Below are positions 4,084 through 22,660 of a stretch of DNA of 64,000 nucleotides, piece after piece. The DNA is from an uncultured Fusobacterium sp. (GTDB taxonomy: Bacteria; Fusobacteriota; Fusobacteriia; Fusobacteriales; Fusobacteriaceae). The DNA is taken from the NCBI GenBank assembly GCA_900541465.1, contig UQJY01000005.1, forward strand, positions 1 through 64,000, in the 5' to 3' direction. The translations under genes and the position numbers were made by a program. How positions within the stretch are numbered: position 1 is the first letter of the stretch; every line of letters starts with the position of its first letter. The notes beneath the pieces were generated by a model that was not told the DNA's origin, searched no databases, and saw nothing but the letters and a program-made list of their open reading frames with translations.

Positions 4084-4716
4084 TTATTCTCTTCCCCAAG
4101 TGTTAGGAGATTTATTCCATTTTAAAGCAATTTCTTTTTCTTCTTCAGTTAAATAATTTTGTTCAGTAGCTACACCAATTAATGTAGTGAAGTCTGAAAG
4201 GTTTGTCCAAGGGATTCCTGCTGCTGCAAAGTTTGTGATAGCTTTTTCAAATTCATAAGAGAATATAGCTACAACTTCAACTTCTTTTGCTCCAGCTGCT
4301 CTTGCTGCTTCAACAGCTTTTATAGAACTTCCTCCTGTAGAGATAAGATCTTCTATAACTATTACTTTTTTACCTTCAAAATCTGCACCTTCAATTTGTC
4401 TTCCAGCACCGTGATCTTTTTTCTCTCCACGGATATAAGCCATAGGAACATTTAATCTTTCAGCTATAAATGCTGCCCACGGGATTCCTGCAGTTGCTGT
4501 TCCTGCAACAATATCAAATTCTTTGTCTTTTAAAACTTCTACATACCCGTCAATAACAGCTTTTCTTTCTTCAGGGTATCCTATCATTTTTCTGTTGTCA
4601 CAGTATATTGGACTTTTTATTCCTGAAACAAATGTAAAAGGTTCAGCTACGTTAAGTCTTACTGCTCCTACACCTAATAATGATTTTGCTACATCTTTAG
4701 CTCTGTTTGTACTCAT
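4084..4716 (-). CDS. pyrE: Orotate phosphoribosyltransferase
   Basis: Adds phosphoribosyl from PRPP to orotate to give OMP, the fifth step of UMP synthesis. 210 aa. The PRPP-binding loop is visible as VIVIEDLISTGGSS (about residues 118-131). The YCDNRK and RGEKKDHGAGRQIEG segments are typical of PyrE. Last gene of the leftward operon pyrB-K-D-F-C-E; its ATG is 3 nt after the pyrC stop, so translation is coupled. I found no convincing intrinsic terminator after it; repeat copy A fills the space. Confidence 0.95.
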   Translation of the reverse strand: MSTNRAKDVAKSLLGVGAVRLNVAEPFTFVSGIKSPIYCDNRKMIGYPEERKAVIDGYVEVLKDKEFDIVAGTATAGIPWAAFIAERLNVPMAYIRGEKKDHGAGRQIEGADFEGKKVIVIEDLISTGGSSIKAVEAARAAGAKEVEVVAIFSYEFEKAITNFAAAGIPWTNLSDFTTLIGVATEQNYLTEEEKEIALKWNKSPNTWGRE

Positions 4717-4719
4717 CTT

Positions 4720-5916
4720 TTATATCACTTCCTTACCAATTTTATTAATAAATTTACCATCATTAAATACTACATTTCCTCTAACTATTGTAGTAAGAAT
4801 TTTTCCGCCTTTTTCAAATCCTTCATATGGTGTCCATCCGCATTTTGAAATTACATTTTCTTGTGAAATAATTTCTTCCGTTGTCATATCCACAATAACA
4901 AGGTCTGCATCATAACCGGCAGCTATTTTTCCTTTATTTTTTAATCCAAAAATTTCTGCTGTATTTTCACTCATTATTTTCATAAGTTTTTCAAGAGATA
5001 TTTTATCACATCTCACAGCTTTAAGCATCATTTCAAGTGAATTTTCTGCTCCGGGAATTCCGAAAGTAAGTTTTGCTTTTTTTTCTTCTATTCTGTGAGG
5101 AGCATGGTCTGTTCCTATTGTATCAATAGTTCCGTCTAAAATTCCTTCCCACAATGCTTCATTATCTTCTTTTGTTTTTAGTTCCGGCTTCATTCTTAAA
5201 AGAGGATTTTTTTCCACATCAGAAACATTTAAAAATAAATGATGAGGAGTTACCTCTCCGTAAACTTTAAGCCCTTTTTTCTTAGCCTCTCTTACATACT
5301 GCACATCTTCTTTTGTTGAAAGATGACATAAATATACAGGAACATCTAATTTTTCAGAAAGAGAAATTGCTTTTGGTATCATTTCTCCCTCTGCATGGAC
5401 TCCAACAAGTTTAGAATTTTTAAAAATATCTTCTAAAACTTTTTCATCTTCCACAAGCATATTTCCTGTTGACACATTCATAAAAACTTTTGTGGCAATA
5501 ACTTTATCCTGAACTTTTTTTACTTCGTCATGGTTGTCTGCCTTGCTTCCTCCAAACCAGAACCCGTAATCTACATAAGATTTTCCTTTATGAAGTTTCT
5601 TTTTTTCTAAAAGAGCTTCTTCTGTTATTGTGTTTGGAACTGTATTAGGCATATCAAAGAAAGTTGTAATTCCCCCTTTTGCACATGCCATACTTCCAGT
5701 CGTAAAATCTTCTTTATGAGTCATTCCCGGATCTCTCATATGAACGTGAGGGTCTATAACTCCAGAAATAACATAATTTCCTGCTGCATCAATTATTTCA
5801 TCAGAAGATACTCCAGATAAATCATCTTCTATTAAAACTATTTTTTCATTTTCAACAAGAATATCTTTAAATTGTTCTTCTCCATCAATAATCATTCTGC
5901 AGTTTTTTATTAACAT
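4720..5916 (-). CDS. pyrC: Dihydroorotase (class I)
   Basis: Cyclises carbamoyl aspartate to dihydroorotate. Amidohydrolase fold with zinc ligands in DPHVHMRDPG (about residues 55-64) and HKED just after. Further motifs are VHAEGE, CHLSTKE, VTPHH and the catalytic Asp in GTDHAPH. 398 aa is slightly shorter than the usual 425-430 of bacterial class I enzymes. Its start overlaps the pyrF end by 7 nt. Fourth enzyme gene of the operon after pyrB, K, D and F. Confidence 0.93.
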   Translation of the reverse strand: MLIKNCRMIIDGEEQFKDILVENEKIVLIEDDLSGVSSDEIIDAAGNYVISGVIDPHVHMRDPGMTHKEDFTTGSMACAKGGITTFFDMPNTVPNTITEEALLEKKKLHKGKSYVDYGFWFGGSKADNHDEVKKVQDKVIATKVFMNVSTGNMLVEDEKVLEDIFKNSKLVGVHAEGEMIPKAISLSEKLDVPVYLCHLSTKEDVQYVREAKKKGLKVYGEVTPHHLFLNVSDVEKNPLLRMKPELKTKEDNEALWEGILDGTIDTIGTDHAPHRIEEKKAKLTFGIPGAENSLEMMLKAVRCDKISLEKLMKIMSENTAEIFGLKNKGKIAAGYDADLVIVDMTTEEIISQENVISKCGWTPYEGFEKGGKILTTIVRGNVVFNDGKFINKIGKEVI

Positions 5917-6638
5917 TTTCCTGCCTCTTTTAACCCTTCTTCAATTTCTTCAACAACAAGTCTTGCTGCAAGAGCCGGGTCTTCATGTTTAGTTATTGGT
6001 CTTCCAACTACTAAGAAATCACAACCGTTCATCATTGCATTTTTTGGAGTCATTATTCTTGTCTGGTCGTTTGTTGCTGACCAAGCAGGTCTTACACCTG
6101 GACATACAGTTTTAAATTCTTCTCCAAGAGCTTCTTTTATATATTTAGCTTCCCAAGGCGAGCATACTACTCCGTTCATTCCAGATTCTTTTGCAAGTCT
6201 TGCAAGATTCATAGCAAGATCTTTTATAGAAGTTTCAGTCATAAATGTTTCTTTAACTTCTTCCTGTGATAAGCTTGTAAGAATTGTAACAGCTATAAGA
6301 AGAGATTTTTCATCTATTTTTCTTACTTCTTCAACTACTTTAGACATCATTTTCTTTCCGCCAGTAGCATGAACATTATACATAAATACATTTTCTTTTG
6401 ATGCAAATACAGATGCCATAGCTGTTGTATTTGGAATATCATGGAATTTTAAATCTAAGAATATTTTTTTATGTTTTCCTGCAAGATATTCTATCATTTT
6501 TCCGCTTGAGTTTAAGAAAAGTTCAAGACCTACTTTATAAAAAGTTGCTCCGTCACCAATTTTTTCAACCAATTCAATAGCTTCTGTCATTGTTGGAAAA
6601 TCAAGAGCTATTATCATTCTATCTTTTGCCTGTATCAT
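5910..6638 (-). CDS. pyrF: Orotidine 5'-phosphate decarboxylase
   Basis: Decarboxylates OMP to UMP, the last step of the pathway. 242 aa TIM barrel. The catalytic Lys-Asp network is visible in FLDLKFHDIPNT (about residues 60-71), with IIALDFP at the N terminus and phosphate-binding VVGRPIT near residue 212. GGGAGG precedes the ATG. Located 50 nt after pyrD. Confidence 0.95.
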   Translation of the reverse strand: MIQAKDRMIIALDFPTMTEAIELVEKIGDGATFYKVGLELFLNSSGKMIEYLAGKHKKIFLDLKFHDIPNTTAMASVFASKENVFMYNVHATGGKKMMSKVVEEVRKIDEKSLLIAVTILTSLSQEEVKETFMTETSIKDLAMNLARLAKESGMNGVVCSPWEAKYIKEALGEEFKTVCPGVRPAWSATNDQTRIMTPKNAMMNGCDFLVVGRPITKHEDPALAARLVVEEIEEGLKEAGKC

Positions 6639-6688
6639 TTTTATTTTCCTCCCAAAATTATTCTATAATTAATTTTTTATTTTCAAAT

Positions 6689-7624
6689 TTATTTTTTTAG
6701 ATTTTTAAAAGTTATTCCTCTGATATCTTGAATATTTTCAAGATTATTTTCTTCAGCATATTTTTGAAGTCCGTCTCTTACCTCAACAGGTAAAACTGGA
6801 TTTGGGAATAAAGCTGTTCCAAGAGAAACAAGAGTTGCTCCTGCCATTATAAATTCTACAGCATCTTCATAAGAAGAAATTCCTCCCATTCCAATTATAG
6901 GAATATTTACATTTTGTGCCACTTGGTAAACCATTCTCACTGCCACAGGTTTTACAGCAGGTCCTGAAAGTCCTCCCATAACATTTCCTAAAATAGGTTT
7001 TCCTGTTTTTATATCTATTCTCATTCCAAGAAGAGTGTTTATCATTGATATTGCATCTGCTCCGTTTGCTTCAACGATTTTTGCAATCTCAACTATATTT
7101 GTTACATTTGGAGAAAGTTTTACTATAAGAGGTTTTTTAGTTAAAACTTTTTTTACTTCTCTTGTTGTTCTTCCTGCAACTTCAGGATTAGCACCAAAAG
7201 CCATTCCGCCGTCTTTTACATTTGGACAAGAAATATTAAGTTCAACTAAATCTATTTCTTCTATTTCATTTACTCTTTTTGCAAGTTCAACATATTGTTC
7301 AACACTGCTTCCATTTATATTTACAATTATATTTGTTTTATCTACACCTTGTTTTTTTAGATTTGGAATAATCTCTTTTTCAAAATAATCAATTCCCGGA
7401 TTTTCAAGTCCTACACAATTTAATATTCCGCTAGGTGTTTCTGCTATTCTTGTTCCAAGATTTCCTGTTCTTGGTTCTAAAGTAAGACCTTTTAAAGTTA
7501 TTCCTCCTAAAACATTCGGATCACAGTAATCTTTAAATTCTGTTCCAAAACCAAAACATCCAGATGAAGTTACTATAGGATTATCAAATTCTACTCCTAA
7601 AAAATTTACTTTTAATCTATTCAA
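6689..7624 (-). CDS. pyrD: Dihydroorotate dehydrogenase B, catalytic subunit
   Basis: Class 1B dihydroorotate dehydrogenase, an FMN protein that hands electrons to NAD+ through PyrK. Motifs: TSSGCFGFG, ELNISCPNVKDGG with the active-site Cys, IVKLSPNV, MINTLLGMRID and GMGGISSYEDA. A GTG at 7633 opens the frame. However, AAGGGGTG sits 6 nt before a TTG at 7624, making TTG (MNRLKVNF) the likelier start. About 311 aa. Paired with pyrK just upstream, as expected for the heterotetrameric 1B enzyme. Confidence 0.92.
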   Translation of the reverse strand: MNRLKVNFLGVEFDNPIVTSSGCFGFGTEFKDYCDPNVLGGITLKGLTLEPRTGNLGTRIAETPSGILNCVGLENPGIDYFEKEIIPNLKKQGVDKTNIIVNINGSSVEQYVELAKRVNEIEEIDLVELNISCPNVKDGGMAFGANPEVAGRTTREVKKVLTKKPLIVKLSPNVTNIVEIAKIVEANGADAISMINTLLGMRIDIKTGKPILGNVMGGLSGPAVKPVAVRMVYQVAQNVNIPIIGMGGISSYEDAVEFIMAGATLVSLGTALFPNPVLPVEVRDGLQKYAEENNLENIQDIRGITFKNLKK

Positions 7625-7652
7625 TTTTTTCACCCCTTAATCATTTTCCCTT

Positions 7653-8456
7653 TTATTTTCCACAGCTGCAAGGAACAGTTTCTTTTGGATTTACATCTAT
7701 CACAATTCTGCTGTCAAAAACTGGTCCGTCATGACAAACTTTTTTCATTCCTTCGTTTGTAAGAATTGAGCATCCTACACATGCTTTTACTCCACATGCC
7801 ATTCTCTCTTCAAGTGAAACTTCACAGTATACACCAAATTCTTCAGCTGTTTTTGCTACAAATTCCATCATTATATGAGGACCGCAAGTATAAACTCCGT
7901 CAACTTTTCTTTCTGATAAAATTTCTCTTAAAGGAAGAGTTACATTTCCTTTTCTTCCTTTTGAACCGTCATCAGTTGTTATTATTGTCTCTATATTTTC
8001 AAGATTCATATTTTCAAGTATTTTTATGCTTTCAGCATTTCTTCCGCCACATATAAATATTACATTGTTCTTTTCAGAAAGACTTTCTATTAATAGTTTC
8101 ATTGGAGCAATTCCCATTCCTCCGCCAACAACAACTATTGTTTTTTTCTCGATATCTGTTGTGAATCCGTGTCCTAAAGGACCTTGAATATTAATAAAGT
8201 CTCCCTCAGAAAGACAGCTGAATTCCTTAGTTCCTTTCCCTTTTACTTCATAATAAAATTCTACAACGTTTTCCTTCCTATTAATATAATGTAAACTTAT
8301 TGGTCTTCTAAGTAAAGTTGCCTCATTTTTACATTGAAGCATAAAGAATTGTCCTGCACATGAAGACTCAATTACTTTGTCTCCCTGTAATTTCATAAGA
8401 TAATAATTCCCGCCGATATGGCTGTTTTCTAAAACCCTGCAATCTTCTAAAAACAT
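7653..8456 (-). CDS. pyrK: Dihydroorotate dehydrogenase B, electron-transfer subunit
   Basis: Carries FAD and a [2Fe-2S] cluster and passes electrons from PyrD to NAD+. The N-terminal FAD-binding barrel has the LLRRPISLH motif. The NAD domain has VVVGGGMGIAPM. Four cluster cysteines lie in ACGVKACVGC and a later KVCHDG. The frame could open at 8468 (TTG), but that codon lies inside the GGGAGG site. The ATG at 8456 is the proper start (267 aa). It sits 14 nt after pyrB and 28 nt before the chosen pyrD start. Confidence 0.93.
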   Translation of the reverse strand: MFLEDCRVLENSHIGGNYYLMKLQGDKVIESSCAGQFFMLQCKNEATLLRRPISLHYINRKENVVEFYYEVKGKGTKEFSCLSEGDFINIQGPLGHGFTTDIEKKTIVVVGGGMGIAPMKLLIESLSEKNNVIFICGGRNAESIKILENMNLENIETIITTDDGSKGRKGNVTLPLREILSERKVDGVYTCGPHIMMEFVAKTAEEFGVYCEVSLEERMACGVKACVGCSILTNEGMKKVCHDGPVFDSRIVIDVNPKETVPCSCGK

Positions 8457-8470
8457 TTTTCCTCCCAAAC

Positions 8471-9535
8471 CTATATTTCTTTTCCACAGTAATAGCAGTA
8501 TTTTCTTCCGTTAATTACTTCTACTTTGTTGTCTGTTCTCTCAAAAGCTGTTATACAGTTATGATTTGTGCAGACTCTTTCTTTATTTTTTATAATTTCA
8601 TTCTGTTCTTTTTCCTTATAATTAATGCTAAGTTTTCCAAGGGCTGTTCCAATCATTGCTTCTCTTACAGGAACTCCATTTTTTGCCTGTTTAAAATACA
8701 AAGCATGTTTTGTGTCATCAAGATCTATATCTATCTCGTCAACTCTTGGAAGCGGATGAAGAATTATCATATTTTCTTTACATTTTCCAACTATTGTATC
8801 TTTTGAAATTATATAAACACCTTTCATTCTTTCATAAAGTGCTTCATCTTCAAATCTTTCTTTTTGTATTCTTGTCATGTAAAGAACATCTACTTCTTTT
8901 AAAATTTCTTTATAATCTGAAACTAATTTATATTCTATTCCTTTAGCATCTAATTCGTGAGTTATCTCTTCTGGAATTTGTATCTCTTCTGGAGCGACAA
9001 AATAGAATTTTTGTCCTTCAAATTTGGACAATGCTCTTGCAAGTGAGTGGACAGTTCTTCCATATTTTAAATCTCCTACAAAAGCTGTTGTGATATTATC
9101 TATTCTTCCCTGCTCTTCTTGAATTGTAAAAAGATCTAAAAGTGTCTGACTTGGATGTTCGTTTGCTCCATCTCCAGCATTTATTACAGGAACGCATGCA
9201 ACATCATCTGCAAATTTTGCAGCTCCGTCTCTTAAGTGTCTCATTATGATTACGTCTGCATATCCCTCTGTCATTTTTATTGTATCTCTTAGGCTTTCAC
9301 CTTTTTTAAGAGATGTTGCACTTGGGCTGTCAAATCCCAAAACTTTTGCTCCAATTCTAAAACTTGCAGATGTAAAAGAAAGTCTCGTTCTTGTTGACGG
9401 CTCAAAGAATAAAGTAGCTGCTATTTTATCCTTAATTAATTCAGGATTTGGATTTTCCTTTAATTCTTTGGCTCTTTTCAAAATTTCCAAAATCTCGTCT
9501 TTTGTAAATTCTTTGATAGATATGAAACTTTTCAT
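8471..9535 (-). CDS. pyrB: Aspartate carbamoyltransferase fused to a PyrI-type zinc domain
   Basis: Residues 1 to about 305 are a complete catalytic chain: FEPSTRTR carbamoyl-phosphate motif (44-51), HPSQTLLD (127-134), HPLPR (260-264). The last ~35 residues hold Cys322, Cys327, Cys347 and Cys350 in a C-x4-C...C-x2-C arrangement, which matches the C-terminal zinc domain of the E. coli regulatory chain PyrI. The nucleotide-binding N-terminal part of PyrI is absent. The zinc domain could therefore stabilise subunit contacts without CTP/ATP control. Length is 354 aa against about 305 for plain PyrB. First enzyme gene of the operon, preceded by the attenuator at 9557-9602. Confidence 0.93.
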   Translation of the reverse strand: MKSFISIKEFTKDEILEILKRAKELKENPNPELIKDKIAATLFFEPSTRTRLSFTSASFRIGAKVLGFDSPSATSLKKGESLRDTIKMTEGYADVIIMRHLRDGAAKFADDVACVPVINAGDGANEHPSQTLLDLFTIQEEQGRIDNITTAFVGDLKYGRTVHSLARALSKFEGQKFYFVAPEEIQIPEEITHELDAKGIEYKLVSDYKEILKEVDVLYMTRIQKERFEDEALYERMKGVYIISKDTIVGKCKENMIILHPLPRVDEIDIDLDDTKHALYFKQAKNGVPVREAMIGTALGKLSINYKEKEQNEIIKNKERVCTNHNCITAFERTDNKVEVINGRKYCYYCGKEI

Positions 9536-9602: not shown

Positions 9603-9608
9603 AAAATA

Positions 9609-9722: not shown

Positions 9723-9755
9723 TTAATATCCTCCCTATTTTTTTACATTGTTAAG

Positions 9756-9784: not shown

Positions 9785-9800
9785 TATTTTTTTAATTTTT

Positions 9801-11591
9801 CTATTCAGAAATCATATACTTCCTGCATTTATTATAAACCTTTTCATCTACAACAGCAACTATTTTTATTCCCTCGCCTAAAAATTCTTCATTTTCTACA
9901 ACTGCATTGCTGTGAATATAAGCTGACACAGCTGTGTCGCTGTAAGGAATAATATATTCTGCTTTTTTCATTGTCTGTGGAAGTTTTGATACAGCTTTTT
10001 CAAGAAGCACATCTACATTTTTATTTTGTTTTGCACTTATCTCAACAACTTCATAGCCTGCTAATTTTTCTTTTATCTCAGATAATTTTTCTTCAGAAAC
10101 AAGTTCTGATTTATTAAGTGCAAGAATTACAGGTTTATCCTGACAGCCAAGCTCTTTTAAAACATTTTCTACAACCTCAATTTCTTGGAAAAGATTTTCG
10201 CTGTGAGCATCTGTCACATGAATTAAAATATCTGAAAAAATTACTTCTTCAAGAGTAGATTTGAATGCTTCAACCAAGTCATGAGGAAGTTTTCTTATAA
10301 ATCCAACAGTATCAGCTATTGCTACCTCTTTTTTGTCTGAAAGTTCTACAACTCTAACTGTAGTGTCAAGAGTGGCAAAAAGCATATCTTTTGCAAATAC
10401 ATCTTCAGTTTTGCTGCTGTTCTCTTTGCAGTATGTACTTACAATAAGATTTCTTAATGTTGACTTTCCTACGTTCGTATATCCTACAAGAGAAATCTTT
10501 CCCATTCCAGATTTTTCTCTCTTTTCTCTCTGAGTTCCTCTTGTTTTTTTGATTTTTTCAAGTTCTTCTTTCAGATTATGGATATTCTCTTTTATTTTTC
10601 TTCTGTCAAGTTCAAGCTTTGTCTCTCCAAGCCCTCTGTTTCCAAGACCTCCTACCCTTGAAAGAGATGTTCCAAATCCGATAAGTCTTGTACTTCTATA
10701 TCTAAGTGCTGCAAGTTCAACTTGAATTTTAGCTTCTCTTGTTCTTGCACGTCTTGCAAAAATTTCTAAAATCAGAGATGTTCTGTCCATAACTTTACAG
10801 CCGATTGCATCTTCAAGATTTCTTATCTGTATTCCAGAAAGTTCTTCATCAAAAATTATAAGATTTGCACCTTTTATCTGTTTTACTCTGGCAAGTTCTA
10901 TAACTTTTCCTTTCCCAATATAGAAACTTTTATCAATATTATTTCCCTTTTGAAGAAGAATATCAACTGTTTCTATTTCACAGGCATCAGCAAGTTCTTT
11001 TAATTCTTCAAGACTTGCCATACTCTCTCTTCCTACAAGAACTGCAAAATCTTTATTCTCATCTTGAATTTCTCTCATTCTCAAATCTTTTTCTATTTCT
11101 GCCACTTTATCAAGATAGCTGTAATCCTCAATACTCTCAAGATTATTTGCTCTATACTCTTCATATCCGATAACATTATTTTCAACTTTACAGAAAGCTA
11201 TCCCTACTCCTGTAATTTTTCCTTCTGTATTTACACCAACAGCAATCATAGCATCAAGCTGAAGTTCTATAAGAGCTGATATATCCACATCTGAAAGTTT
11301 TGAATTTCCATTTGGATGAGTATGAATAATTCTTAGCCCGCTCAGTCTTTTCTCTTTAATTTCAACCTTTGGCAGAGTTGCACTGGCATTATCACCTATG
11401 TTTATATCCACTGTTTTTCCATTTCTGTCGATTGCTATGCTGATTTCCTTATTAATTTTTATACTGATCTCAGAAATTTTTTCTACAATCTCTTTTTTTA
11501 AAAATTTTCCTCTCTCAATTTTTTCTTCACAAGTTGTTTCTAACTCTTTTAAAATATAATCTTTAATTCCATTTGTGTTGCCGTTTATCAT
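9801..11591 (-). CDS. hflX: GTPase HflX with N-terminal JAMM-like domain
   Basis: HflX splits stalled or stressed 70S ribosomes using GTP. The C-terminal part has the HflX domain (LSRVGGLGNRGLGE before the G domain), G1 GYTNVGKST, G3 DTVGF and G4 ALNKSE. Residues 1 to about 150 are extra compared with E. coli HflX. They contain His90-Thr-His92, Ser100 and Asp103 (HTHPNGNSKLSDVD), the H-x-H-x7-S-x2-D metal signature of JAMM/MPN metallopeptidases. 596 aa against about 430 for E. coli. GGAGGG precedes the ATG. It lies just upstream of the pyr promoter, co-oriented. Confidence 0.9.
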   Translation of the reverse strand: MINGNTNGIKDYILKELETTCEEKIERGKFLKKEIVEKISEISIKINKEISIAIDRNGKTVDINIGDNASATLPKVEIKEKRLSGLRIIHTHPNGNSKLSDVDISALIELQLDAMIAVGVNTEGKITGVGIAFCKVENNVIGYEEYRANNLESIEDYSYLDKVAEIEKDLRMREIQDENKDFAVLVGRESMASLEELKELADACEIETVDILLQKGNNIDKSFYIGKGKVIELARVKQIKGANLIIFDEELSGIQIRNLEDAIGCKVMDRTSLILEIFARRARTREAKIQVELAALRYRSTRLIGFGTSLSRVGGLGNRGLGETKLELDRRKIKENIHNLKEELEKIKKTRGTQREKREKSGMGKISLVGYTNVGKSTLRNLIVSTYCKENSSKTEDVFAKDMLFATLDTTVRVVELSDKKEVAIADTVGFIRKLPHDLVEAFKSTLEEVIFSDILIHVTDAHSENLFQEIEVVENVLKELGCQDKPVILALNKSELVSEEKLSEIKEKLAGYEVVEISAKQNKNVDVLLEKAVSKLPQTMKKAEYIIPYSDTAVSAYIHSNAVVENEEFLGEGIKIVAVVDEKVYNKCRKYMISE

Positions 11592-13395: not shown

Positions 13396-15021
13396 TTATA
13401 ATCTTGTAAATACTTCTATGATATTGAATATATGATCTCTTATTCTTCTGTAATGGTTTAATATATCCATATAACTTGTACTGAATACCGCTGATGAACC
13501 TGCTTTTACATTTTCTAAGTGGAAACTTCTTGCCTGTCTGAATTTCTCTGTAATTTCATTTGCTTTTTTAATAGATTTAATAAATCTCTCTTTATCTTTT
13601 GTTTCAAAAGCCATATTAATTTCTCTGAATAAAATTTCAATATTTTCATTTAAATCAAATAAAGTTTTTCTTGCTTTATCATTTATCTGAATATCATGAT
13701 CCTGTATCTTTCTTATAGATTTTCCTATTCTCATTAAGTAATCACTTATTGTTTCATACTCATCACAGACTTCCAAGTTCTTTCTTGTTTCTTCTCTCAT
13801 GGAATCTGTTAAGTCTTTATTAAGAATTAAGAAGTTTACGTCTGTTATCTCTTTTTGGTAAAGGTCCAGATTATCTTCCATCTTTTGAAGTCTTGAAAGT
13901 TTTGCATCTGAAATCATTTCATTCTTTGCATAAGTTTCTTCTAAAGCAAACATCATTTCTTTTATGTTCTGTGCCATTGCAAGAACTTCAACTTTCGTCT
14001 GACCAACTATCAAACTTGGTGTTCCCACCATAAGTTTATCAAGTTTTGTAACTTTCTCATCAGATTTTCCGCTGTCTTTTACTATCTTAGTAAGGAAAGC
14101 TGAAAGCGGTCCTGTAAACGGAATAAATAAAAATACATTCAATACGTTAAACATTGTATGTGCAGTAGCTATTCCAAAAGTTATATTATTTTCCACATCA
14201 ACTATATGACCTAAAAATTTAATATAAAACGGGAATATTGAAGTTACCCATATAACTCCCAGCATATTTATAATTGTATGAGCATAGGCAGCTCTTTTTG
14301 CATTTGTTGTTGCCCCAAGAGAAGCAAGAAATGCTGTTATTGTTGTTCCTACATTTTCTCCTAAAACCAAAGCAACTGCTGTGGGATAATCAATAAGCCC
14401 CTGAACTGCAAGAGTAATTGTTATACCAAGTGTTGCTGCTGACGACTGAACTATTCCTGTTATTAAAGCTCCGATACATGCAACCTTTACTGCTCCAAAA
14501 TATGTATCAGCATTAAAAAGTTTAAATAGTTCAATAAATTCAGGCATACTTCTTATTGGTTTAAGACCGTTGCTCATCAAATCAAGCCCTAAAAATATAA
14601 GTCCTAATCCCATCACTGTAAGCGACCTTGTTCTTGCTTTGTCACTTCTAAAAAATACATAAGCAATAGCCGCAGCTCCTGTTATAGGAAGCCCATACTT
14701 TCCTATATTAAGAACAAGCAGCCAGCCTGTTACAGTTGTACCTATGTTTGCTCCAAGAATTACACCAAGAGCCTGTTTTAAAGTAAGCAGAGAAGCGTTA
14801 ACAAATCCTATTGTCATTACTGTACTTACAGACGACGACTGTACAAGCATCGTTACAAATATTCCAATAAGAACTGCCATTATTCTGTTTGTTGTAAGTG
14901 CCGCCAGTATTTTTTTTAGTCTTTTTCCTGCAAGTTTCTGCATACCACCTGACATATTTTCCATTCCATAAAGGAAAATACCCAGTCCGCCAATCACGTT
15001 GAAGATAATGTTTAAATACAT
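13396..15021 (-). CDS. Na/Pi-cotransporter family protein with PhoU-like domain
   Basis: Membrane phosphate or anion transporter of the NptA/YjbB type. The N-terminal half has two homologous QSS repeats, MLVQSSSVSTVM (about residues 57-68) and GIVQSSAATLGI (about 190-201), each with a following GxNIGTT/GENVGTT, characteristic of PF02690. The C-terminal part, from about 330, is a helical PhoU-like domain. The frame opens at 15036, but GGGAGGAAAG lies between that codon and the ATG at 15021 (541 aa), the better start. Monocistronic. It may set phosphate efflux or uptake. Confidence 0.88.
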   Translation of the reverse strand: MYLNIIFNVIGGLGIFLYGMENMSGGMQKLAGKRLKKILAALTTNRIMAVLIGIFVTMLVQSSSVSTVMTIGFVNASLLTLKQALGVILGANIGTTVTGWLLVLNIGKYGLPITGAAAIAYVFFRSDKARTRSLTVMGLGLIFLGLDLMSNGLKPIRSMPEFIELFKLFNADTYFGAVKVACIGALITGIVQSSAATLGITITLAVQGLIDYPTAVALVLGENVGTTITAFLASLGATTNAKRAAYAHTIINMLGVIWVTSIFPFYIKFLGHIVDVENNITFGIATAHTMFNVLNVFLFIPFTGPLSAFLTKIVKDSGKSDEKVTKLDKLMVGTPSLIVGQTKVEVLAMAQNIKEMMFALEETYAKNEMISDAKLSRLQKMEDNLDLYQKEITDVNFLILNKDLTDSMREETRKNLEVCDEYETISDYLMRIGKSIRKIQDHDIQINDKARKTLFDLNENIEILFREINMAFETKDKERFIKSIKKANEITEKFRQARSFHLENVKAGSSAVFSTSYMDILNHYRRIRDHIFNIIEVFTRL

Positions 15022-15124
15022 CTTTCCTCCCATCAAAATTCAAATTTACACCTTTTAAAAGATTAACATATTATTCAAAAAAAGTAAATAATCAATATTC
15101 CATTTTGAAAAAGTTTGTAAACAA

Positions 15125-15148
15125 AAAAGGCAGCTTCAAGCCGCCCTT
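15125..15148 (-). terminator. BI-1 gene terminator
   Basis: GGCGGCTT pairs with AAGCTGCC on the minus strand, followed by T6. Confidence 0.8.
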
Positions 15149-15163
15149 TTAATAACTGAAGTA

Positions 15164-15862
15164 TTATTTTCTTTTTGAAAAAATTCTAATAATATAAAGG
15201 AACAGATTGATAAAATCCAAATAAAGATTTAATGCACCAACTATTCCAAGTTTTCCGATAATCTCATCATCTCCCTCTGCCACTTCATATGCCATATTTT
15301 TTATTCTGTTGACATCATAAGCAATAAGTGCAGAGAAAATTACAACTCCTAAAATTGTAACAGTCCAGTAAAGCATTGGAGCATGTAAGAACATATTTAT
15401 AAGGCTCATTATTATAAGAGAAATAAGTCCTGTTTTTAAATATCCTCCGTAATTGCTCAAATCTTCATTTGTAGTATAACCATATACTGCAATTACAATA
15501 AACATTACAATTGTTGTAAGAAGAGAATAAGCTATAATCATAAGATTTCCAATAAACATCATTCCTATAAGAGAAAATACAAGCCCGTTAAGGAATGAAT
15601 AAAAGAAAAACATAAGTTTTGCCGACATAAGTGAAACTTTATAAATTCTGAAAGAAAATAAAAGCACTGTGGCAAATTCTAAAATTATAATTGGTGTATA
15701 AAACTTTGCTATATAACCTGCAAGCACAAAACCATTTTCTGAAAACATAATATATGCAGGAACTAAAAAAGTAACTAAAAGTCCTAATATCATATAAGTA
15801 AATGATGTTCTCAAAAGTTTATTGCTGGCTGTAATATCTACATAACCTCTTTCGTTGTACAT
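15164..15862 (-). CDS. Bax inhibitor-1/YccA family membrane protein
   Basis: 232 aa with seven hydrophobic segments, an inner-membrane protein. The C-terminal region GALNLYLDFINLF..IIRIFSKRK and the internal AYDVNRIKN match the UPF0005/BI-1 family, whose best-studied bacterial members act as pH-sensitive Ca2+ leak channels or membrane-protease regulators. AGGAGG precedes the ATG. Single-gene unit. The physiological role here is not evident. Confidence 0.88.
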   Translation of the reverse strand: MYNERGYVDITASNKLLRTSFTYMILGLLVTFLVPAYIMFSENGFVLAGYIAKFYTPIIILEFATVLLFSFRIYKVSLMSAKLMFFFYSFLNGLVFSLIGMMFIGNLMIIAYSLLTTIVMFIVIAVYGYTTNEDLSNYGGYLKTGLISLIIMSLINMFLHAPMLYWTVTILGVVIFSALIAYDVNRIKNMAYEVAEGDDEIIGKLGIVGALNLYLDFINLFLYIIRIFSKRK

Positions 15863-15941
15863 TTTAATACCTCCTTAAGTATTACAAATAATATTCCAGT
15901 GTATTAATTATACAACATTTTTTCTGTTTTTTCTATATTTA

Positions 15942-16523
15942 CTAAAAGATAACAACTCCTAAAACAGCTCCTGCAACAACAAGAATTATAGGATGAATTT
16001 TAGTTTTTAAAAGAATTAAGAAAGATACAGCTATTATTACAACACTTGGAAGATTAAAAACCATATCCATAAATGTTGCATTCATTGTACTTTCAACAGC
16101 ATTTTCTATTTTTGAAAAAATTATTCCATTTTTTATTCCAAATTTTATAGCTGCATAAAAAGTTATTCCTACAACAGCAGGTTTAAGCCCTGAAAGAGCC
16201 GCTTTGAAATTTTTTGAATGATAAACTTTTTCAAACACAGCACAAACTGCCACAACAACTATTATACTTGGAAGAGTTACACCAAGAGCTGCAGCCGCAA
16301 CTCCAAGAGGTCCGCCTAAAGAATATCCAAAACCAATGGCAAGGTTTATTCCAACCGGCCCGGGACAAACACCGGCTATTGCAACAACACTCGATAAAAT
16401 TTCAGGAGTAAGCATTATACCGTAATTATTAAGCTGCTGTTCAATAAGAGGTATCATTGTATAACCTCCACCAAAAGAGAAAAATCCAAGTTTAAAGAAA
16501 ATTATAAAAAGACTGTATAACAT
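15942..16523 (-). CDS. chrA: Chromate transporter family protein, second half-size subunit
   Basis: 193 aa with about six membrane spans. FFKLGFFSFGGGYTMIPLIE at the N terminus and VAGVCPGPVGINLA are the CHR family signatures (PF02417). The family exports or exchanges chromate or a related oxyanion. This is a short-chain member, paired with a homologous half-size gene directly upstream (1-nt overlap). The two probably form a heterodimer equal to one long-chain ChrA. The natural substrate in an anaerobe is uncertain. Confidence 0.88.
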   Translation of the reverse strand: MLYSLFIIFFKLGFFSFGGGYTMIPLIEQQLNNYGIMLTPEILSSVVAIAGVCPGPVGINLAIGFGYSLGGPLGVAAAALGVTLPSIIVVVAVCAVFEKVYHSKNFKAALSGLKPAVVGITFYAAIKFGIKNGIIFSKIENAVESTMNATFMDMVFNLPSVVIIAVSFLILLKTKIHPIILVVAGAVLGVVIF

Positions 16524-17080
16524 TATTTATCACCTCTTATCTTTTTATAAAGTTCCACTGCCCAGTTTATTCCAATTCCTGCAAACATAGAGATAATTAT
16601 TATAAGAGGCAGAGGAATATTGCTGTAGAAAAGTGAGACGAAGAAAGTTATCACTGTTATTATTCCATACCAATAATTTTTAAATGCTGTAAGAGCTATT
16701 TTATATGTTGCATACAAAATAAAGGCAACAACAACTCCGCTTACGCCTGTAAGTCCTTTTATAACATATGGATTGTCACTGATATTTGAAAATAAAACCA
16801 TTATGCTTGAAATTATTATAAGACAAGGAATAACACTTGCAGCAGCTCCAACGACTGCTCCCTTTAATCCGCAGGTAGTTTTTCCAATAAATATTGCAAT
16901 GTTAAGACCTATTGCTCCAGGAAGCCCCCCTGCAATAGAAACTATGTCTGCAAATTTATTTTTGTCCATAATTTTGTATTTTTCAACTATCTCTCTTTCA
17001 ATAAGAGGTATCATTGAATATCCTCCTCCAAAAGAGAAAAATCCTAAAGTGAAAAATGTTTTAAAGATTTTTCCTAACAT
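16523..17080 (-). CDS. chrA: Chromate transporter family protein, first half-size subunit
   Basis: 185 aa, the same family as the next gene: FFTLGFFSFGGGYSMIPLIE (about residues 9-28) and SIAGGLPGAIGLNIA. The two genes overlap by one base and are surely co-translated. GGGAGG precedes the ATG. Located 18 nt after the VOC gene, so a three-gene operon is likely. Confidence 0.88.
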   Translation of the reverse strand: MLGKIFKTFFTLGFFSFGGGYSMIPLIEREIVEKYKIMDKNKFADIVSIAGGLPGAIGLNIAIFIGKTTCGLKGAVVGAAASVIPCLIIISSIMVLFSNISDNPYVIKGLTGVSGVVVAFILYATYKIALTAFKNYWYGIITVITFFVSLFYSNIPLPLIIIISMFAGIGINWAVELYKKIRGDK

Positions 17081-17098
17081 TTTTTATTCCCTCCCAAA

Positions 17099-17485
17099 TT
17101 ATTTTCCATATACTTCCAGAGGGAGATTGTCCGGATCTTTAAAAAATGTAAATTTCTTTCCTGTAATTTCATCAATTCTTACAGGTTCTGTTTCAATACC
17201 TTTTTCATTAAGCTCCGCTGCTGTTTTTTCCACATCATCAACTTCAAAAGCTAAATGTCTAAGCCCTCTCGCTTCTGGAGAATTTACTCTTTCCGGCGGA
17301 TTTGGAAAAGAAAAAAGTTCTATCTGGTAAACTCCAGCAACTTTTAAATCAAGTTTATAAGAATTTCTCTCTTCTCTAAAAACTTCATTTTCAATTTCAA
17401 ATCCAAGTTTTTCTACATAAAATTCTTTTGATTTTTGATAATCTGAACAAATAACAGCAACATGATGTATTCTGTTGAATTTCAT
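17099..17485 (-). CDS. VOC/glyoxalase family protein
   Basis: 128-aa single-domain vicinal-oxygen-chelate protein (SMU1112c/YwbC type). Start MKFNRIHHVAVICSDY with metal His8/His9. Further candidate ligands are Glu in QIELFSF, His in RHLAFEVDD and Glu in PLEVYGK at the C terminus. Such proteins include lactoylglutathione lyase relatives and dioxygenases. The substrate here is unknown. First gene of the VOC-chrA-chrA group. Confidence 0.85.
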   Translation of the reverse strand: MKFNRIHHVAVICSDYQKSKEFYVEKLGFEIENEVFREERNSYKLDLKVAGVYQIELFSFPNPPERVNSPEARGLRHLAFEVDDVEKTAAELNEKGIETEPVRIDEITGKKFTFFKDPDNLPLEVYGK

Positions 17486-17617
17486 AGTCTCCCTCCTCTA
17501 AATAATATTTTTAATTTCAGTAAAAATTATATCACAGAACCATTGAAATATAAATCTCTATTTATCTATATTCCATTTTCTTTTGCCTTCTTTCTTAACC
17601 TGTTTCATAGATAAATT

Positions 17618-17651
17618 GAGACAGGCTCTCTTTTTAAAGATTACCTGTCTC
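17618..17651. terminator. Hairpin after carB
   Basis: GAGACAGG (17618-17625) pairs with CCTGTCTC (17644-17651). An upstream CCTGTTTC can pair with the same arm. The T run is good on the plus strand (ATTTCTTTTT) and weak on the minus strand, so termination of carB here is likely but not certain. Confidence 0.5.
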
Positions 17652-17680
17652 ATTTCTTTTTATATGTTTAATTTTTTATT

Positions 17681-20600
17681 TTATAATTTTGAAATATCGA
17701 ATATTTCAAGTTCTCCTGCTTTAAGATGTTTTTTCTCCATTCTTATTATTGCATTAAGAGTATCTATTGAAGTTAGAACTTCAACTCCATATTCTATAGC
17801 AGTTCTTCTCATTTTAAATCCATCTCTTTGAGCGTCATTTGCTTTTGTAGGTGTGTTGATTAAAAGATCAACTTTTCTGTTCATAAGCATTGTAAGAATA
17901 TTTGGCTCTTCCTCTCCAACTCTTCTTACAACTTCTGCTTTCACTCCATGTTCTTCAAGATATTTTTGAGTTCCTGCTGTTGCGAAAAGCTCACATCCAA
18001 GTTCGATTAATTCTTTTGCAACTGGTAAAAATTCTTCTTTATCTTTATCTCTTATTGTTAAAAGGACTTTTCTTCCTGAAACTTTATTAACTCTTTTTGC
18101 TGCAAGAAGTCCTTTATAGATTGCTTCGTCAACTGTATTTCCTATTCCTAAAACTTCCCCTGTTGATCTCATTTCAGGCCCAAGTGATACTTCTACATTT
18201 GATAATTTTTCTGTTGAGAACACTGGAACTTTTACTGCAACAACATTTGGTTTTTTATAAATTCCTGTTCCATAGCCAATTTCATGTAAAGTTTCCCCTA
18301 AAATAATTCTTGTAGCAATTTCAATTACAGGAAGACCTGAAATTTTAGAAATATATGGAACTGTTCTTGATGATCTTGGGTTTACTTCGATTACATAAAG
18401 TTCATTTTCATAAGCTATGAATTGAATGTTCATCATTCCTTTTGTTCCTAAAGCTTTTGAAATTTTAGCTGTGATTTCAAGAACTTTTTCTTCTGTTCCT
18501 TCATATAGATTTTGCTGAGGATATACTGTTATTGAGTCTCCAGAGTGAACTCCTGCTCTTTCTAGGTGTTCCATTATTCCAGGAATAAGTACATCTTCAC
18601 CGTCGCAGATTGCGTCAACTTCAAGTTCAATTCCGTTTAAGTATTTATCTATAAGAACTGGGTTTTCTGGGTCTCTGTCAAATGATGATTCAAGATATTT
18701 TACAAGGTTGTATTCATCATGGCAGATTTCCATTCCTTGTCCTCCAAGAACATAAGAAGGTCTTACAAGAACAGGATATTTTATTTCGTTTGCAATTTCA
18801 ATTCCGTGGTTGATATCCCAAACTGCTCTTCCTTTTGGTCTTTTTATATCAAGTTCTTCCATCATTTCTTCAAATTTTTCTCTATCTTCTGCTTCATCTA
18901 TTTTTTCTGCAGAAGTTCCAAGAATTTTTATTCCTCTTTCAGCAAGAGCATTTGCAAGTTTTATTGCTGTCTGTCCTCCAAATTGAAGAATTACTCCTTC
19001 TGGATTTTCTTTTTCAATTATATTTAAAACATCTTCTAAAATTAATGGTTCAAAATATAATCTGTCAGCTGTATTGTAGTCTGTTGAAACTGTTTCTGGG
19101 TTGTTGTTTATGATTATGCTTTCAATTCCCATTTTCTTTAATGTTTTTATTGAGTGAACTGTACAATAGTCAAATTCGATTCCTTGCCCGATTCTTATTG
19201 GCCCTGAACCGATAACTATTATTTTTCTTCTGTTTTCAACTTCTACTTCATCATGCTCATCATATGTTGAATATAAGTAAGATGTTTGTGCTTTAAATTC
19301 TGCAGCACAAGTATCAACTCTCTTATATGCAGGGATTATTCCGTGCTCAAGTCTTTTGCTTCTTATGTCTTCTTCACTTACACCCATAAGCTCTGCAATT
19401 CCTCTGTCAGAGAATCCTTTTTTCTTTAATTTTCTTAAGTATTCAACATCTAAATCTTTAAATTTAGTTTTCTTTAAAATTTCTTCCTGTTTTACAAGCC
19501 ATTCGATTTTTTCCATGAAGAACTTATCTATACCTGTAATTTTTTGTAATTTTTCTTTTATATATCCTCTTCTTAACATTTCAGCAACAACGAATATTCT
19601 TTCGTCGTCAGGTCTTACAACTGCTTTTTTTAGTTCTTCCATTGTAAGTTTTTTTACTGCCGGATGTTCTAAATTAAATCTTCCGATTTCAAGAGATTTT
19701 AATCCTTTTAAGAAAGCTGCTTCAAAGTTGTCTCCTATTGACATAACTTCTCCTGTTGCCATCATTTTTGTTCCAAGAACTTTGTTTGCATTTCTGAATT
19801 TATCAAATGGCCATTTAGGAATTTTTGCAACTATATAGTCGATTGTCGGCTCTGTGCAGGCATAAGATTCTCCTGTAACTTCATTTACAATTTCATCAAG
19901 AGTGTATCCTAAAGCAAGTTTTGTAGAAACTCTAGCTATTGGATATCCTGTTGCTTTTGATGCAAGAGCTGATGAACGAGAAACTCTTGGGTTAATTTCA
20001 ATTATTGCATATTTCATTGATTTTGGGTGAAGAGCAAATTGAACGTTACATCCTCCTATAACTCCAACTTCATCTAATATTTTTAATGCAGATTTTTTAA
20101 GCATAACTGCTTCTTTATGAGTTAAAGTTTGAGTAGGAGCAACAACTATTGAGTCTCCTGTGTGAATTCCAACTGGGTCAACGTTTTCCATATTACAAAT
20201 TGTAATACAGTTTCCGTTTTTGTCTCTCATTACTTCATATTCTATTTCTTTCCATCCAAGGATAGATTTTTCAATAAGAACTTGTCCAACTCTTGAAAGA
20301 GCAAGTCCTTTTAATAATATTTCTTCAAGTTCTTTAGGGTTGTTTGCAATTCCTCCCCCTGTTCCTCCCATTGTGTAAGCTGGTCTTACAACAACCGGGT
20401 ATCCTATTTCTTTTGCAACGTCTCTTCCATGCTCTAAACTTTCAACGATTTCACTTTCAATGCAAGGCTCTCCTATTTTCTCCATAGTTTCTCTGAAGAT
20501 TTCTCTGTCCTCACCTTTTTTTATTGACTCAACAGAAGTTCCTATTACTCTTACACCGTATTTTTCTAAAATTCCTTTTTCTGTAAGTTCAACAGCAAGG

Positions 20601-20887
20601 TTAAGAGCTGTCTGACCTCCCATTCCAGCAAGAAGTGAGTCAGGTCTTTCTTTAGCAATTACTTTCTCAACAAATTCTGCTGTAATCGGTTCAACATAAA
20701 TTCTGTCTGCAACAGTTTTGTCTGTCATTATTGTTGCCGGGTTTGAGTTTATTAATACAACTTCAATTCCTTCGCTTTTTAAAGTTTCACAGGCTTGTGT
20801 TCCTGAATAGTCAAATTCTGCTGCCTGTCCTATGATAATTGGTCCTGAACCTATTACTAATACTTTTTTTATTGATTTATCCAACAT
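17681..20887 (-). CDS. carB: Carbamoyl-phosphate synthase large subunit
   Basis: Makes carbamoyl phosphate from ammonia, bicarbonate and two ATP, for pyrimidine and arginine synthesis. 1068 aa, full length, with two homologous ATP-grasp halves: [17 protein letters not shown] at the N terminus and [16 protein letters not shown] in the second half. The C-terminal allosteric MGS-like domain includes NTPTK. The ATP-grasp motifs [18 protein letters not shown] and [15 protein letters not shown] are both intact, so both phosphorylation steps should work. The gene starts 31 nt after carA. In this organism the small subunit lacks its catalytic residues, so CarB may be fed by free ammonia. Confidence 0.97.
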
Positions 20888-20918: not shown

Positions 20919-21953
20919 TTAAACAAGTTTTAAAAAGTTTACAAAAACATCTTTTGGACTTTCATATAAGTCTGGCATAAATTGTACACCAACAACTTTT
21001 AAATCATCATTTTTCATTCCTTCTATTGTTTTTACATTTACTCCCTGATGAGTCATTTCCATTCCTTCAGGAAGTTCTTCAACAACATATCCTGCATTTT
21101 GAGAAGTAGTTATTATTTTTCCTGCTGCCATATCTCTTACAGGATATCCTCCTCTGTGTCCGTATTTAAGTTTTGCAACTTTTCCTCCTAGAGCAAGAGC
21201 TATAACCTGATGCCCTAAAACTTCTCCGAATACAGAAATTTTTCCTATAACTTTTTTAAGTTCTTCTATTGTTTCTGTAAGGTCAGCTGGATTTCCAGGT
21301 CCGTTTGAAACCACAAGAGCAGATAAATTTTCATTTAAAATTTCTTCAGCTTTTGTGTTGTATGGGAATACAACAACGTTAAATCCTTGAGATTCAAGAT
21401 AAGCTAATGTGCTTTTCTTAACTCCTAAATCAAGAACTCCTATTCTTTTTCCTTCACCTTTGATTTCATATTTTTCTTTACAGCTTACTTCACTCACTGC
21501 ATTTTTATTTGAAAAACTGTTAAATCTTTCTTGAATTTCTTTTTTTGTTAAATCTTCTGCTGTAATTATAGCTTTCATTGAACCATTATCTCTTATAATC
21601 TGAGTAAGGTATCTTGTATCTATTCCTTTAAATCCTGTAACATTGTATTGTCTTAAGAAACCGTCAAGAGTCATTTCACATCTGAAATTGTTTGGCAGTT
21701 TTGCATCTTCTTTAATAATAAGAGCTTTTAACTGAACTTTGTCTGATTCCATATCTTCAGTGTTGATACCATAGTTTCCTATCATAGGATAAGTCATTAC
21801 CATCATCATTCCATGTCCTGCAGGATCTGTAAGCATTTCCTGATATCCTGTCATTCCTGTGTTGAACGAAATTTCTCCTACTGAATCTGCAAGTTCTCCA
21901 AAGATTTTTCCTTCAAAGACCTTCCCATTTTCAAGAATTAATTTTCCTTTCAT
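20919..21953 (-). CDS. carA: Carbamoyl-phosphate synthase small subunit, glutaminase triad missing
   Basis: The fold is clearly CarA (344 aa): N-terminal GEISFNTGMTGYQEMLTDP, TYPMIGNYG, and the class I amidotransferase part with SNGPGNPAD and GHRGGYPV. The nucleophile motif GICLGHQ is replaced by GEVLGHQ, so Val245 stands where Cys should be. The HPE pair is replaced by MPD (Met326, Asp328), and SQNHG is SQNAG. The nucleotides at these sites are unambiguous. Glutamine hydrolysis should therefore be impossible. The subunit may be kept to hold CarB in an active, ammonia-using form. Its start has GGGAGG upstream and lies downstream of an attenuator. Confidence 0.93.
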   Translation of the reverse strand: MKGKLILENGKVFEGKIFGELADSVGEISFNTGMTGYQEMLTDPAGHGMMMVMTYPMIGNYGINTEDMESDKVQLKALIIKEDAKLPNNFRCEMTLDGFLRQYNVTGFKGIDTRYLTQIIRDNGSMKAIITAEDLTKKEIQERFNSFSNKNAVSEVSCKEKYEIKGEGKRIGVLDLGVKKSTLAYLESQGFNVVVFPYNTKAEEILNENLSALVVSNGPGNPADLTETIEELKKVIGKISVFGEVLGHQVIALALGGKVAKLKYGHRGGYPVRDMAAGKIITTSQNAGYVVEELPEGMEMTHQGVNVKTIEGMKNDDLKVVGVQFMPDLYESPKDVFVNFLKLV

Positions 21954-21977: not shown

Positions 21978-22008
21978 AAAAAAAAAGATATAACGTTTGT
22001 TATATCTT
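21978..22008 (-). terminator. car operon attenuator hairpin
   Basis: GATATAAC pairs with GTTATATC around AAAC on the minus strand, followed by T9. The stop codon of the leader ORF (TAA, 22002-22000) is inside the 5' arm, so a ribosome reaching it must melt the terminator. It lies before carA. Confidence 0.85.
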
Positions 22009-22116
22009 AGCTACAAAATTAAATATAAAATTGAAAAATATAAAAAAAGCATTAAAAAATGAGCTAATTCCAGAAAAAATGTTATTCTTAAAATTCTTCC
22101 ATTCTCTCCTTCTCAT
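22000..22116 (-). CDS. car operon leader peptide (38 aa)
   Basis: ATG at 22116-22114, stop at 22002-22000. A GTG at 22125 in the same frame is closer to the GGGAGG site (41 aa). The peptide begins RRREWKNFK, then NNIFSGISSFF, then a long Phe/Ile/Asn run coded almost only by U-rich codons. The RR..K....IFSG[FI]S core is shared with the pyr leader at 9609-9722. Promoter, U-rich leader ORF and overlapping terminator match UTP-sensing, translation-coupled attenuation as in E. coli pyrBI. Confidence 0.72.
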   Translation of the reverse strand: MRRREWKNFKNNIFSGISSFFNAFFIFFNFIFNFVAKI

Positions 22117-22154
22117 CTTTTCCACTTGCCTCCCAGATTTTATTTCTGAAGAAG

Positions 22155-22282: not shown

Positions 22283-22660
22283 ATGGAATTCATTATTATT
22301 ACAAATAATCCAAAAGTTTATAATTTTTACAAAGAAACTGATGAAATTATTTTTTTAAAAGGAAAAACTCTGCTTCAGCTTTTAGAAGAAATTAACAACT
22401 ATGTCATAAAAGGGCATAAAATTTTAAGCGACCCAATAGTATCACACATTGAAAACAGCAGCAATCCTTTTAAAACGATTTTAATTTCAAAATATCCTGC
22501 TGAAAATAATATGAGTTCTCTTGATATTATCGGAGGTGTATTGCAGATTGCAGAAAAACTTCCTGCTCCTCTTCCTCTTACAACAGATGAAAATATTCTT
22601 GAGGAGTTCAGATTTATAGATCTTAACCTTATTATAAACAGCATAAAAGAATTAAATTAA
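22283..22660 (+). CDS. GrdX-like protein
   Basis: 125 aa, soluble. It starts with IIITNNPKVYNF, followed by a short predicted alpha/beta domain with GHKILSDPIVSHI. These resemble GrdX, a small protein of unknown function often coded with selenoprotein glycine/sarcosine reductases. That link would fit the tRNA-Sec of this genome, but no grd gene is nearby. Assignment is from memory of the family and is tentative. GGGAGG precedes the ATG. The gene is 16 nt upstream of an EAL-like gene, so they form an operon. Confidence 0.5.
   Translation: MEFIIITNNPKVYNFYKETDEIIFLKGKTLLQLLEEINNYVIKGHKILSDPIVSHIENSSNPFKTILISKYPAENNMSSLDIIGGVLQIAEKLPAPLPLTTDENILEEFRFIDLNLIINSIKELN

Follow-up and report, generated by a model that had tools for sequence, protein, structure and literature searches.

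The carbamoyl phosphate synthases (CPSs) closest to the locus described here differ in architecture and in the nitrogen donor they use. Escherichia coli CarAB (CPS II; structures 1a9x, 1bxr and 1c30) is encoded by two genes, keeps the catalytic residues Cys269, His353 and Glu355 in its small subunit and prefers glutamine. CPS1 of animal mitochondria (human structures 5dot and 6uel), in contrast, is a single fused polypeptide activated by NAG. It has lost the catalytic Cys (Ser294 in human) while retaining the glutaminase-like domain, and the enzyme itself uses free ammonia, according to excerpts of PMC4655335. Alcolapia CPS III represents an independent shift toward ammonia as nitrogen donor, in a fused eukaryotic enzyme that keeps the triad and has a changed glutamine-binding residue, as described in excerpts of PMC7657897. 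Carbamate-kinase-like and other routes, as in Thermococcales, yield carbamoyl phosphate without a glutaminase subunit but through unrelated enzymes (excerpts of PMC6245113 and PMC13260591). For bacteria, a review (PMC6245113) names glutamine as the physiological donor for the E. coli enzyme "and by extension" for all bacterial CPSases.

The window, a 64,000-nucleotide stretch from an uncultured Fusobacterium sp. (contig UQJY01000005.1), contains a carAB pair that, together with other lineages described below, contradicts this generalisation at the level of sequence. It shares the two-gene architecture of E. coli CarAB, yet it lacks the triad, and the neighbours of the ammonia gate in its CarB are altered. 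Like CPS I, it has a glutaminase site that is inactivated by sequence, with Val in place of Ser and further changes to Met and Asp; unlike CPS1, it consists of two ORFs, and its CarB residues 253, 261 and 352 are not those of CPS1. We consider it likely, with good confidence, that this locus encodes a heterodimeric, ammonia-dependent CPS that is CPS I-like in outcome and whose CarA is glutaminase-dead. No report of a glutaminase-dead bacterial CarA was found among the titles and abstract openings listed by searches of the open-access literature.

A CarA subunit without the glutaminase triad

The features of the locus are collected in Table 1. CarA is a whole-length match to CarA family models (TIGR01368, 348.2 bits against a cut-off of 307.35; NF009475, 365.1 bits against 221), and the alignment to E. 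coli CarA covers nearly all of it. This alignment bears out the preliminary description in its ORF, its coordinates and the four replacements it had named, Val245, Met326, Asp328 and the SQNAG motif. As a glutamine-hydrolysing CarA of the CPS II type, the protein shows the family match and the adjacent CarB, and it lacks Cys269, His353 and Glu355.

Table 1. Features of the carAB locus and pyr cluster in the window (codons numbered in the window proteins; E. coli numbering where stated)
Feature	Position	Strand	Description	Basis
carA	20919..21953	-	glutaminase-dead (predicted) carbamoyl-phosphate synthase small subunit, 344 aa	family models, alignment
CarA codon 245	21219..21221	-	Val, replaces catalytic Cys269 (E. 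coli numbering); motif GEVLGHQ	
CarA codon 326	20976..20978	-	Met, replaces catalytic His353; motif FMPD	
CarA codon 328	20970..20972	-	Asp, replaces catalytic Glu355; motif FMPD	
CarA codon 287	21093..21095	-	Ala, replaces His312; SQNAG vs QNHG	
CarA codon 45	21819..21821	-	Ala, replaces Ser47	
carB	17681..20887	-	large subunit, 1068 aa	family models, alignment
CarB codon 252	20132..20134	-	Thr (E. coli 253), two residues past gate residue Ala251	
CarB codon 260	20108..20110	-	Ala (E. coli Tyr261)	
CarB codon 261	20105..20107	-	Val (E. coli Gln262)	
CarB codon 264	20096..20098	-	Lys (E. coli Arg265)	
CarB codon 349	19841..19843	-	Ile (E. coli position 352)	
pyr cluster	4084..9535	-	pyrE, pyrC, pyrF, pyrD, pyrK, pyrB	five of six pass curated cut-off
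TTGACA box	22183-22178	-	upstream of carA	
Possible leader peptide ORF	22000..22125	-	41 aa, Phe-rich, GTG start, Shine-Dalgarno-like GGGAGG	
Intrinsic-terminator-like hairpin	21978..22008	-	10 bp, with T run, between leader ORF and carA	

Since intact is used here for any CarA with the complete triad, the triad cannot serve as a test, and the informative residues are those around it. The 118 distinct triad-keeping CarAs all have Ser47, Gln273, Asn311, His312, Gly359 and Pro360; in a larger set of 218, Ser47 and His312 remain invariant and Pro360 is found in 215. The window CarA has lost both Ser47 and His312 besides the triad, which indicates a glutamine pocket eroded beyond the triad. Its GNHP loop is one residue short, and the Gly359 column holds Ser in one alignment and a gap in the alignment of the larger set. 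From these replacements we infer that the protein is unable to hydrolyse glutamine.

The preliminary description had proposed a survey of the triad. Among the 120 homologues listed of 7679 scored, the triad is absent in 83, which include the window clade, and present in 37. The triad-less proteins span 100% to 63% identity to the window CarA, and among them the Cys site is mostly Val (Thr in P0080, Gly in P0086). A loss common to 83 of the 120 listed homologues rules out sequencing error. CarA matches occur in 59 of 61 genomes sampled from the family of the nearest genome with a named contig (L001, a Fusobacterium sp. MAG). A second, intact carA serving CarB, which the preliminary description had considered, was not found in the four sister genomes (G001, G024, G035 and G036): each has one CarA of the dead window type as its sole match at E <= 0.001. 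The dead CarA is fixed in the window clade.

An altered ammonia gate in CarB

The preliminary description had called CarB intact, which agrees with the synthetase positions checked and not with the gate neighbours. The protein scores 1515.7 bits with TIGR01369 (cut-off 1027), the alignment to E. coli CarB covers nearly all of it, and 17 positions, which we take to represent the ATP and phosphorylation sites, are as in intact relatives (three are unreadable in C. difficile). Five other positions, 253, 261, 262, 265 and 352 in E. coli numbering, are nearly invariant in 95 CarBs beside intact CarAs and altered in the window; at 352, Leu is found in 92 of the 95, and E. coli itself has Ile. Tyr261 and Arg265 are presumably on the tunnel wall. 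Alignment to human CPS1, together with excerpts of PMC4655335, maps Ala251 to the CPS1 gate residue Ala667. The window CarB thus looks catalytically intact, yet changed at the neighbours of the gate. Human CPS1 has Ala253, Phe261, Gln262, Arg265 and Leu352 where the window has Thr, Ala, Val, Lys and Ile. The comparison with CPS I drawn earlier consequently applies to outcome and not to detail.

The combination of Thr253 with Cys or Ala at 261 is a signature. It occurs in 20 of 27 readable CarB partners of Cys-less CarAs and in none of 207 partners of Cys-keeping ones, after 1 of 28 and 12 of 219 partners, respectively, had been dropped as unreadable or gapped at the sites. In Fusobacteriaceae and Peptostreptococcaceae, 20 of 20 readable partners of dead CarAs carry it, among them the CarBs of G103 and G096/G098, which were read later. 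What is new here is this CarB gate signature, which tracks CarAs predicted to be dead in both families. Its reach is bounded by the wider Clostridia. Before 40 further Clostridia CarAs were added, the signature stood at 20 of 20 Cys-less CarAs with a readable CarB (L067 being unreadable); the 40 brought seven Cys-less CarAs whose CarBs lack it and read, at 253, 261, 262, 265 and 352, AFNRI, SYQRL, CAQRI, AYQRV (twice), VYRRL and SYQRI. Because one of the seven (L318) pairs a dead CarA with the fully ordinary SYQRL, a gate change is not required for loss of the glutaminase.

Parts of the signature also occur beside intact CarAs: Cys261 alone in L034 and L327, Thr253 in L230, L231, L311, L315, L326 and L340, and an altered CAQRI gate in L316 (G159). 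L316 and L317 (G246) are related CarBs that both read CAQRI, one beside an intact and one beside a dead CarA. This pair suggests that a gate change may precede glutaminase loss.

The number of CarB changes is not in itself unusual. Rows of dead lineages show 6 to 10 departures at conserved columns and intact rows 0 to 23 (median 1), with 18 of 95 intact CarBs reaching 6 or more; in a smaller control, six intact groups have 0 to 2 fixed changes each. Because intact CarBs also reach such numbers, only the sharing of sites is remarkable. Unrelated dead lineages (<80% identity) share 3 to 5 departures, always including 253, 261 and 352, while among 4071 intact pairs below 80% identity, 3981 have no departure in common, 82 have one, 6 have two, 2 have three and no pair has more. 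Of the four dead lineages first compared, every one departs at 253, 261 and 352, three depart at 262 and two at 265.

The chief alternative for the signature, and for it only, is that it reflects relaxed constraint at sites of tunnelling from CarA and not adaptation to free ammonia. The sites lie near the tunnel gate, so that constraint could drop once CarA is dead, and the residues at 262 do vary (V, A, R). Against this, the substitutions repeat between lineages. Thr253 is common to every lineage with the signature, Ile352 to most of them (G096/G098 have Val) and Lys265 to two, and only the window clade departs from Cys261. Furthermore, C. difficile CarB has six fixed changes, and five of these are at sites that are also changed in the window clade. 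Such an overlap has a chance of about 1e-8 if sites are random (nine changes, 389 conserved columns), a figure that takes account neither of hot spots nor of the limit of 319 readable columns in C. difficile. We regard relaxed constraint as a real but lesser possibility. The Thr253 codons are found beside Ser codons that are of the TCN type in Fusobacteria and AGT among the relatives of C. difficile, and this difference suggests at least two origins. The recurrent changes name residues that may set the uptake of free ammonia by CPS, for which work on the CPS1 structure (PMC4655335) offers a path, an alternative tunnel, only as a proposal.

Recurrent loss of the catalytic cysteine

The preliminary description had implied a unique case, and this does not hold. 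Cys-less proteins make up 28 of the 247 distinct CarAs read, and one more (L265) is without only His353; the counts exclude CarA frames shorter than 300 aa (fragments in G034, G018 and G090) and take identical CarAs once. Cys-less CarAs occur as second copies in other Fusobacterium, in a Fusobacteriaceae MAG, in C. difficile and its relatives, and in other Clostridia. In G026, G027 and G029 a second CarA has Ser for Cys, with an intact copy about 9-14 kb away; in G027, a large-genome member of the Fusobacteriaceae, the two carAB pairs of locus L138 lie at 4989-9269 and 14736-19049, about 5.5 kb apart, one intact and the other of the Ser type. The only CarA of G030 is Ser-type, and that of the MAG G048 is Gly-type. 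At locus L129/L130 (G034), carA is split over two contig ends, with an N-terminal piece 76% identical and a C-terminal piece of the intact type.

Outside this family, the C. difficile loci L061, L067, L068 and L070 have Gly or Ile for Cys. C. difficile genomes G062, G064 and G065 also have an intact CarA, and none was found in G063 of the same set. In G075 (L205, C. difficile group), the region 1314-11061 reads pyrF - carA(dead) - carB - carA(intact) - carB, where the name pyrF comes from a profile match in L061. The two tandem CarBs differ at the gate sites (TCAKI vs SYQRL), yet their genes have a DNA identity of 0.97-0.99 across E. coli positions 781-1020, which suggests gene conversion in their 3' part. 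Further Cys-less CarAs are P0236 (Peptacetobacter sp.), P0237, those of G096/G098 and the Ser-type protein of G103. Cys-less CarAs without the signature, from the class of G062, are those of G140, G149, G153, G222, G246, G259 and G271. The sample of this class comprises 157 genomes, 82 of them with a match; CarA was read from 61 (hand count) and is Cys-less in 9, of which G062 and G246 have an intact CarA besides. Of the listed matches, 24 were left unread, namely the 23 with the lowest scores and a second one in G062 that is known separately, and the cut of E <= 1e-90 can hide distant second CarAs.

How often the loss arose depends on the part of CarB that is read. A 234-row tree of positions 1-470, with the signature segments removed, requires a minimum of 10 losses and four gains of the signature, and joins the window lineage with the Ser-type copies (SMD/SLE; the window clade is VMD). 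A 53-row tree, also without the signature segments, requires five changes and a tree of positions 1-240 only three. VMD and SMD/SLE are joined by positions 1-470 (support 95.8) and 1-240 (91.3). They come apart with whole CarB and with its C-terminal part (AU p 0.035; 0.0038 and 7e-6), the C-terminal part separating them strongly at 7e-6, in tests that use quick trees and groups named after the tree was seen. CarA favours neither grouping (p 0.61 and 0.52). The upstream neighbours of the window carAB match those of the intact carAB of G027. Recombination of a block of carA and the 5' part of carB could account for the conflict, or shared selection could mislead the short trees; sliding nucleotide identity shows nothing clear by way of recent exchange. 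Sign tests on the few independent pairs do not reach 0.05 (median p 0.0625 and 0.125). Because the N- and C-terminal parts of CarB conflict, we claim for the signature only at least three separate origins (Fusobacteriaceae, C. difficile/Peptacetobacter and G103), possibly five.

With modest confidence, leaning slightly in its favour, we propose a broader reading: two phyla of anaerobes would have dropped glutamine for carbamoyl phosphate synthesis some ten or more times, with CarA retained as a scaffold; the CarB gate would have been re-tuned for free NH3 in both by the same substitutions (Thr253, Cys/Ala261 and Ile352); and the C. difficile group would hold an ammonia-type and a glutamine-type CPS in tandem. 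The label 'glutamine-hydrolyzing' is doubtful for such enzymes, for example C. difficile P0121 and P0122.

Metabolic context

The loss is not a general one of glutamine use. In each of the seven dead-CarA genomes searched (G001, G024, G035, G036, G030, G048 and G103), a frame recognised by eye as GuaA-like retains Cys, His and Glu. The first five of these also have a glutamine synthetase match, in a frame of about 700 aa; none was found in G048, and 53 of 61 family genomes have such a match. A general loss of glutamine use is ruled out by these intact frames and the wide occurrence of glutamine synthetase. In the same seven genomes a PF00117 search returns GuaA-like frames and CarA, with no CTP synthase (PyrG)-like frame seen by eye.

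A search of 10 genomes for carbamate kinase gives no match over the curated cut-off, which the same search does pass in 2 of 14 control genomes, and this enzyme is rejected as the source of carbamoyl phosphate; no other source was found in these genomes among the routes searched. The likely consumer is the pyr cluster of the window, in which the name pyrK is the best match, just below its cut-off. The argG gene is found at full strength in G001, G035, G036, G048 and G103, and gives only weak matches in G024 and G030.

A model for ammonia-dependent synthesis

In the model that we propose, CarA would be kept as a structural subunit, perhaps stabilising or regulatory, while CarB would convert bicarbonate, 2 ATP and free NH3 into carbamoyl phosphate. 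NH3 would enter by an alternative path and not through the active site of CarA. Thr253 beside the gate, together with the replaced side chains at 261-265 (and 352), probably makes it easier for external NH3 to enter or be used. The carbamoyl phosphate would supply the pyr pathway and also, where argG is present, arginine synthesis. Amino-acid-fermenting gut anaerobes live with high ammonia, and a glutaminase would be dispensable under such conditions.

Work on other CPSs lends the model both precedent and difficulty. Excerpts of PMC4655335 describe normal activity with external ammonia for E. coli CPS whose tunnel is blocked or perforated, and propose an alternative ammonia entry for CPS1 and, less clearly, for E. 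coli. According to a passage of PMC6245113, E. coli CPS can use ammonia only at very high concentrations that are likely irrelevant physiologically. The CarB described here would then have to be better with ammonia, or the intracellular ammonia would have to be high.

This poor use of free ammonia by E. coli CPS is also an argument for an alternative in which a partner glutaminase or deaminating enzyme docks on CarAB and delivers ammonia, without dependence on bulk free ammonia; the retained GATase fold, which is under purifying selection, could be the docking surface. Among the neighbouring genes, however, carB lies 3' of carA and is followed on the same strand by a glyoxalase/VOC-like ORF of 128 aa in both the window and G035, and no amidase- or glutaminase-like gene adjoining carAB was seen by eye in either. 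The CarB changes near the gate, moreover, fit an altered entry of ammonia. We consider a docked partner unlikely.

Selection on the two subunits bears on a further alternative, that carAB is a decaying, physiologically idle operon in cells that scavenge pyrimidines and arginine. The GATase domain does evolve faster than the rest. Its dN exceeds that of the N domain in 10 of 10 pairs from the window clade (5 sequences), and the ratio of dN between the domains, summed by hand over pairs, is about 2.4 in that clade (10 pairs), about 4.9 in the SMD/SLE copies (6 pairs) and about 1.07 in intact CarAs (21 pairs), where single pairs reach 2.3; the further intact pair L158/L159 also has the faster GATase domain (0.133 vs 0.071, ratio 1.9). 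Some homologues are more eroded, such as P0083, whose C-terminus is altered and shorter. Against decay, dN/dS in the window clade is 0.03-0.08 for CarB and 0.03-0.10 for the CarA N domain, the checked CarB positions are conserved, and no stop codons were seen inside the listed CarA matches. The pyr cluster is present in the window, and a hairpin with a T run is visible upstream of carA in 5 of 5 aligned clade members. We hold decay to be quite unlikely. At 0.12-0.27 in the window clade, the dN/dS of the GATase domain indicates relaxed yet still purifying selection, which fits its retention for structure and not for catalysis. The view that CarA is retained without its glutaminase residues beside a conserved CarB, put forward in the preliminary description, is thus upheld by sequence and by purifying selection.

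That CarA still hydrolyses glutamine or another amide through a different nucleophile is very improbable, although the window CarA retains Gln273, Asn311 and Gly241/243. The known triad cannot be built from Val, Met and Asp, the protein also lacks Ser47, His312 and part of the GNHP loop, and in other lineages the Cys site is occupied by Ser, Gly, Thr or Glu.

The carA leader and neighbouring features

The region upstream of carA holds a TTGACA box, a possible leader ORF and a terminator-like hairpin, and the ORF ends inside the 10-bp hairpin. An exact-match scan of ten upstream regions finds leader and hairpin in seven, those of the window, G035, G036, G031, G032, the second copy of G027 and G048, and in none of G001, G024 and G030; G031 and G032 are relatives with an intact CarA. 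In the aligned clade members, the hairpin is imperfect in G001 and G024. The window leader folds with a z of -2.2 against shuffles, 7 of 200 of which fold as well. The leader region is a possible transcription attenuator. The E. coli pyrBI operon has a UTP-sensing attenuator of the leader-peptide kind, and by analogy the carA leader may act in the same way. A known riboswitch or PyrR element upstream of carA was considered and rejected; at Rfam gathering scores the whole window gives only a selenocysteine tRNA (RF01852, 70.5 bits), at 1383-1471 on the (+) strand. Divergent from carA lies a gene of the GrdX family (NF038093), at 22283-22660 (+), and GrdX-like ORFs, recognised by eye, also flank the intact carAB of G027.
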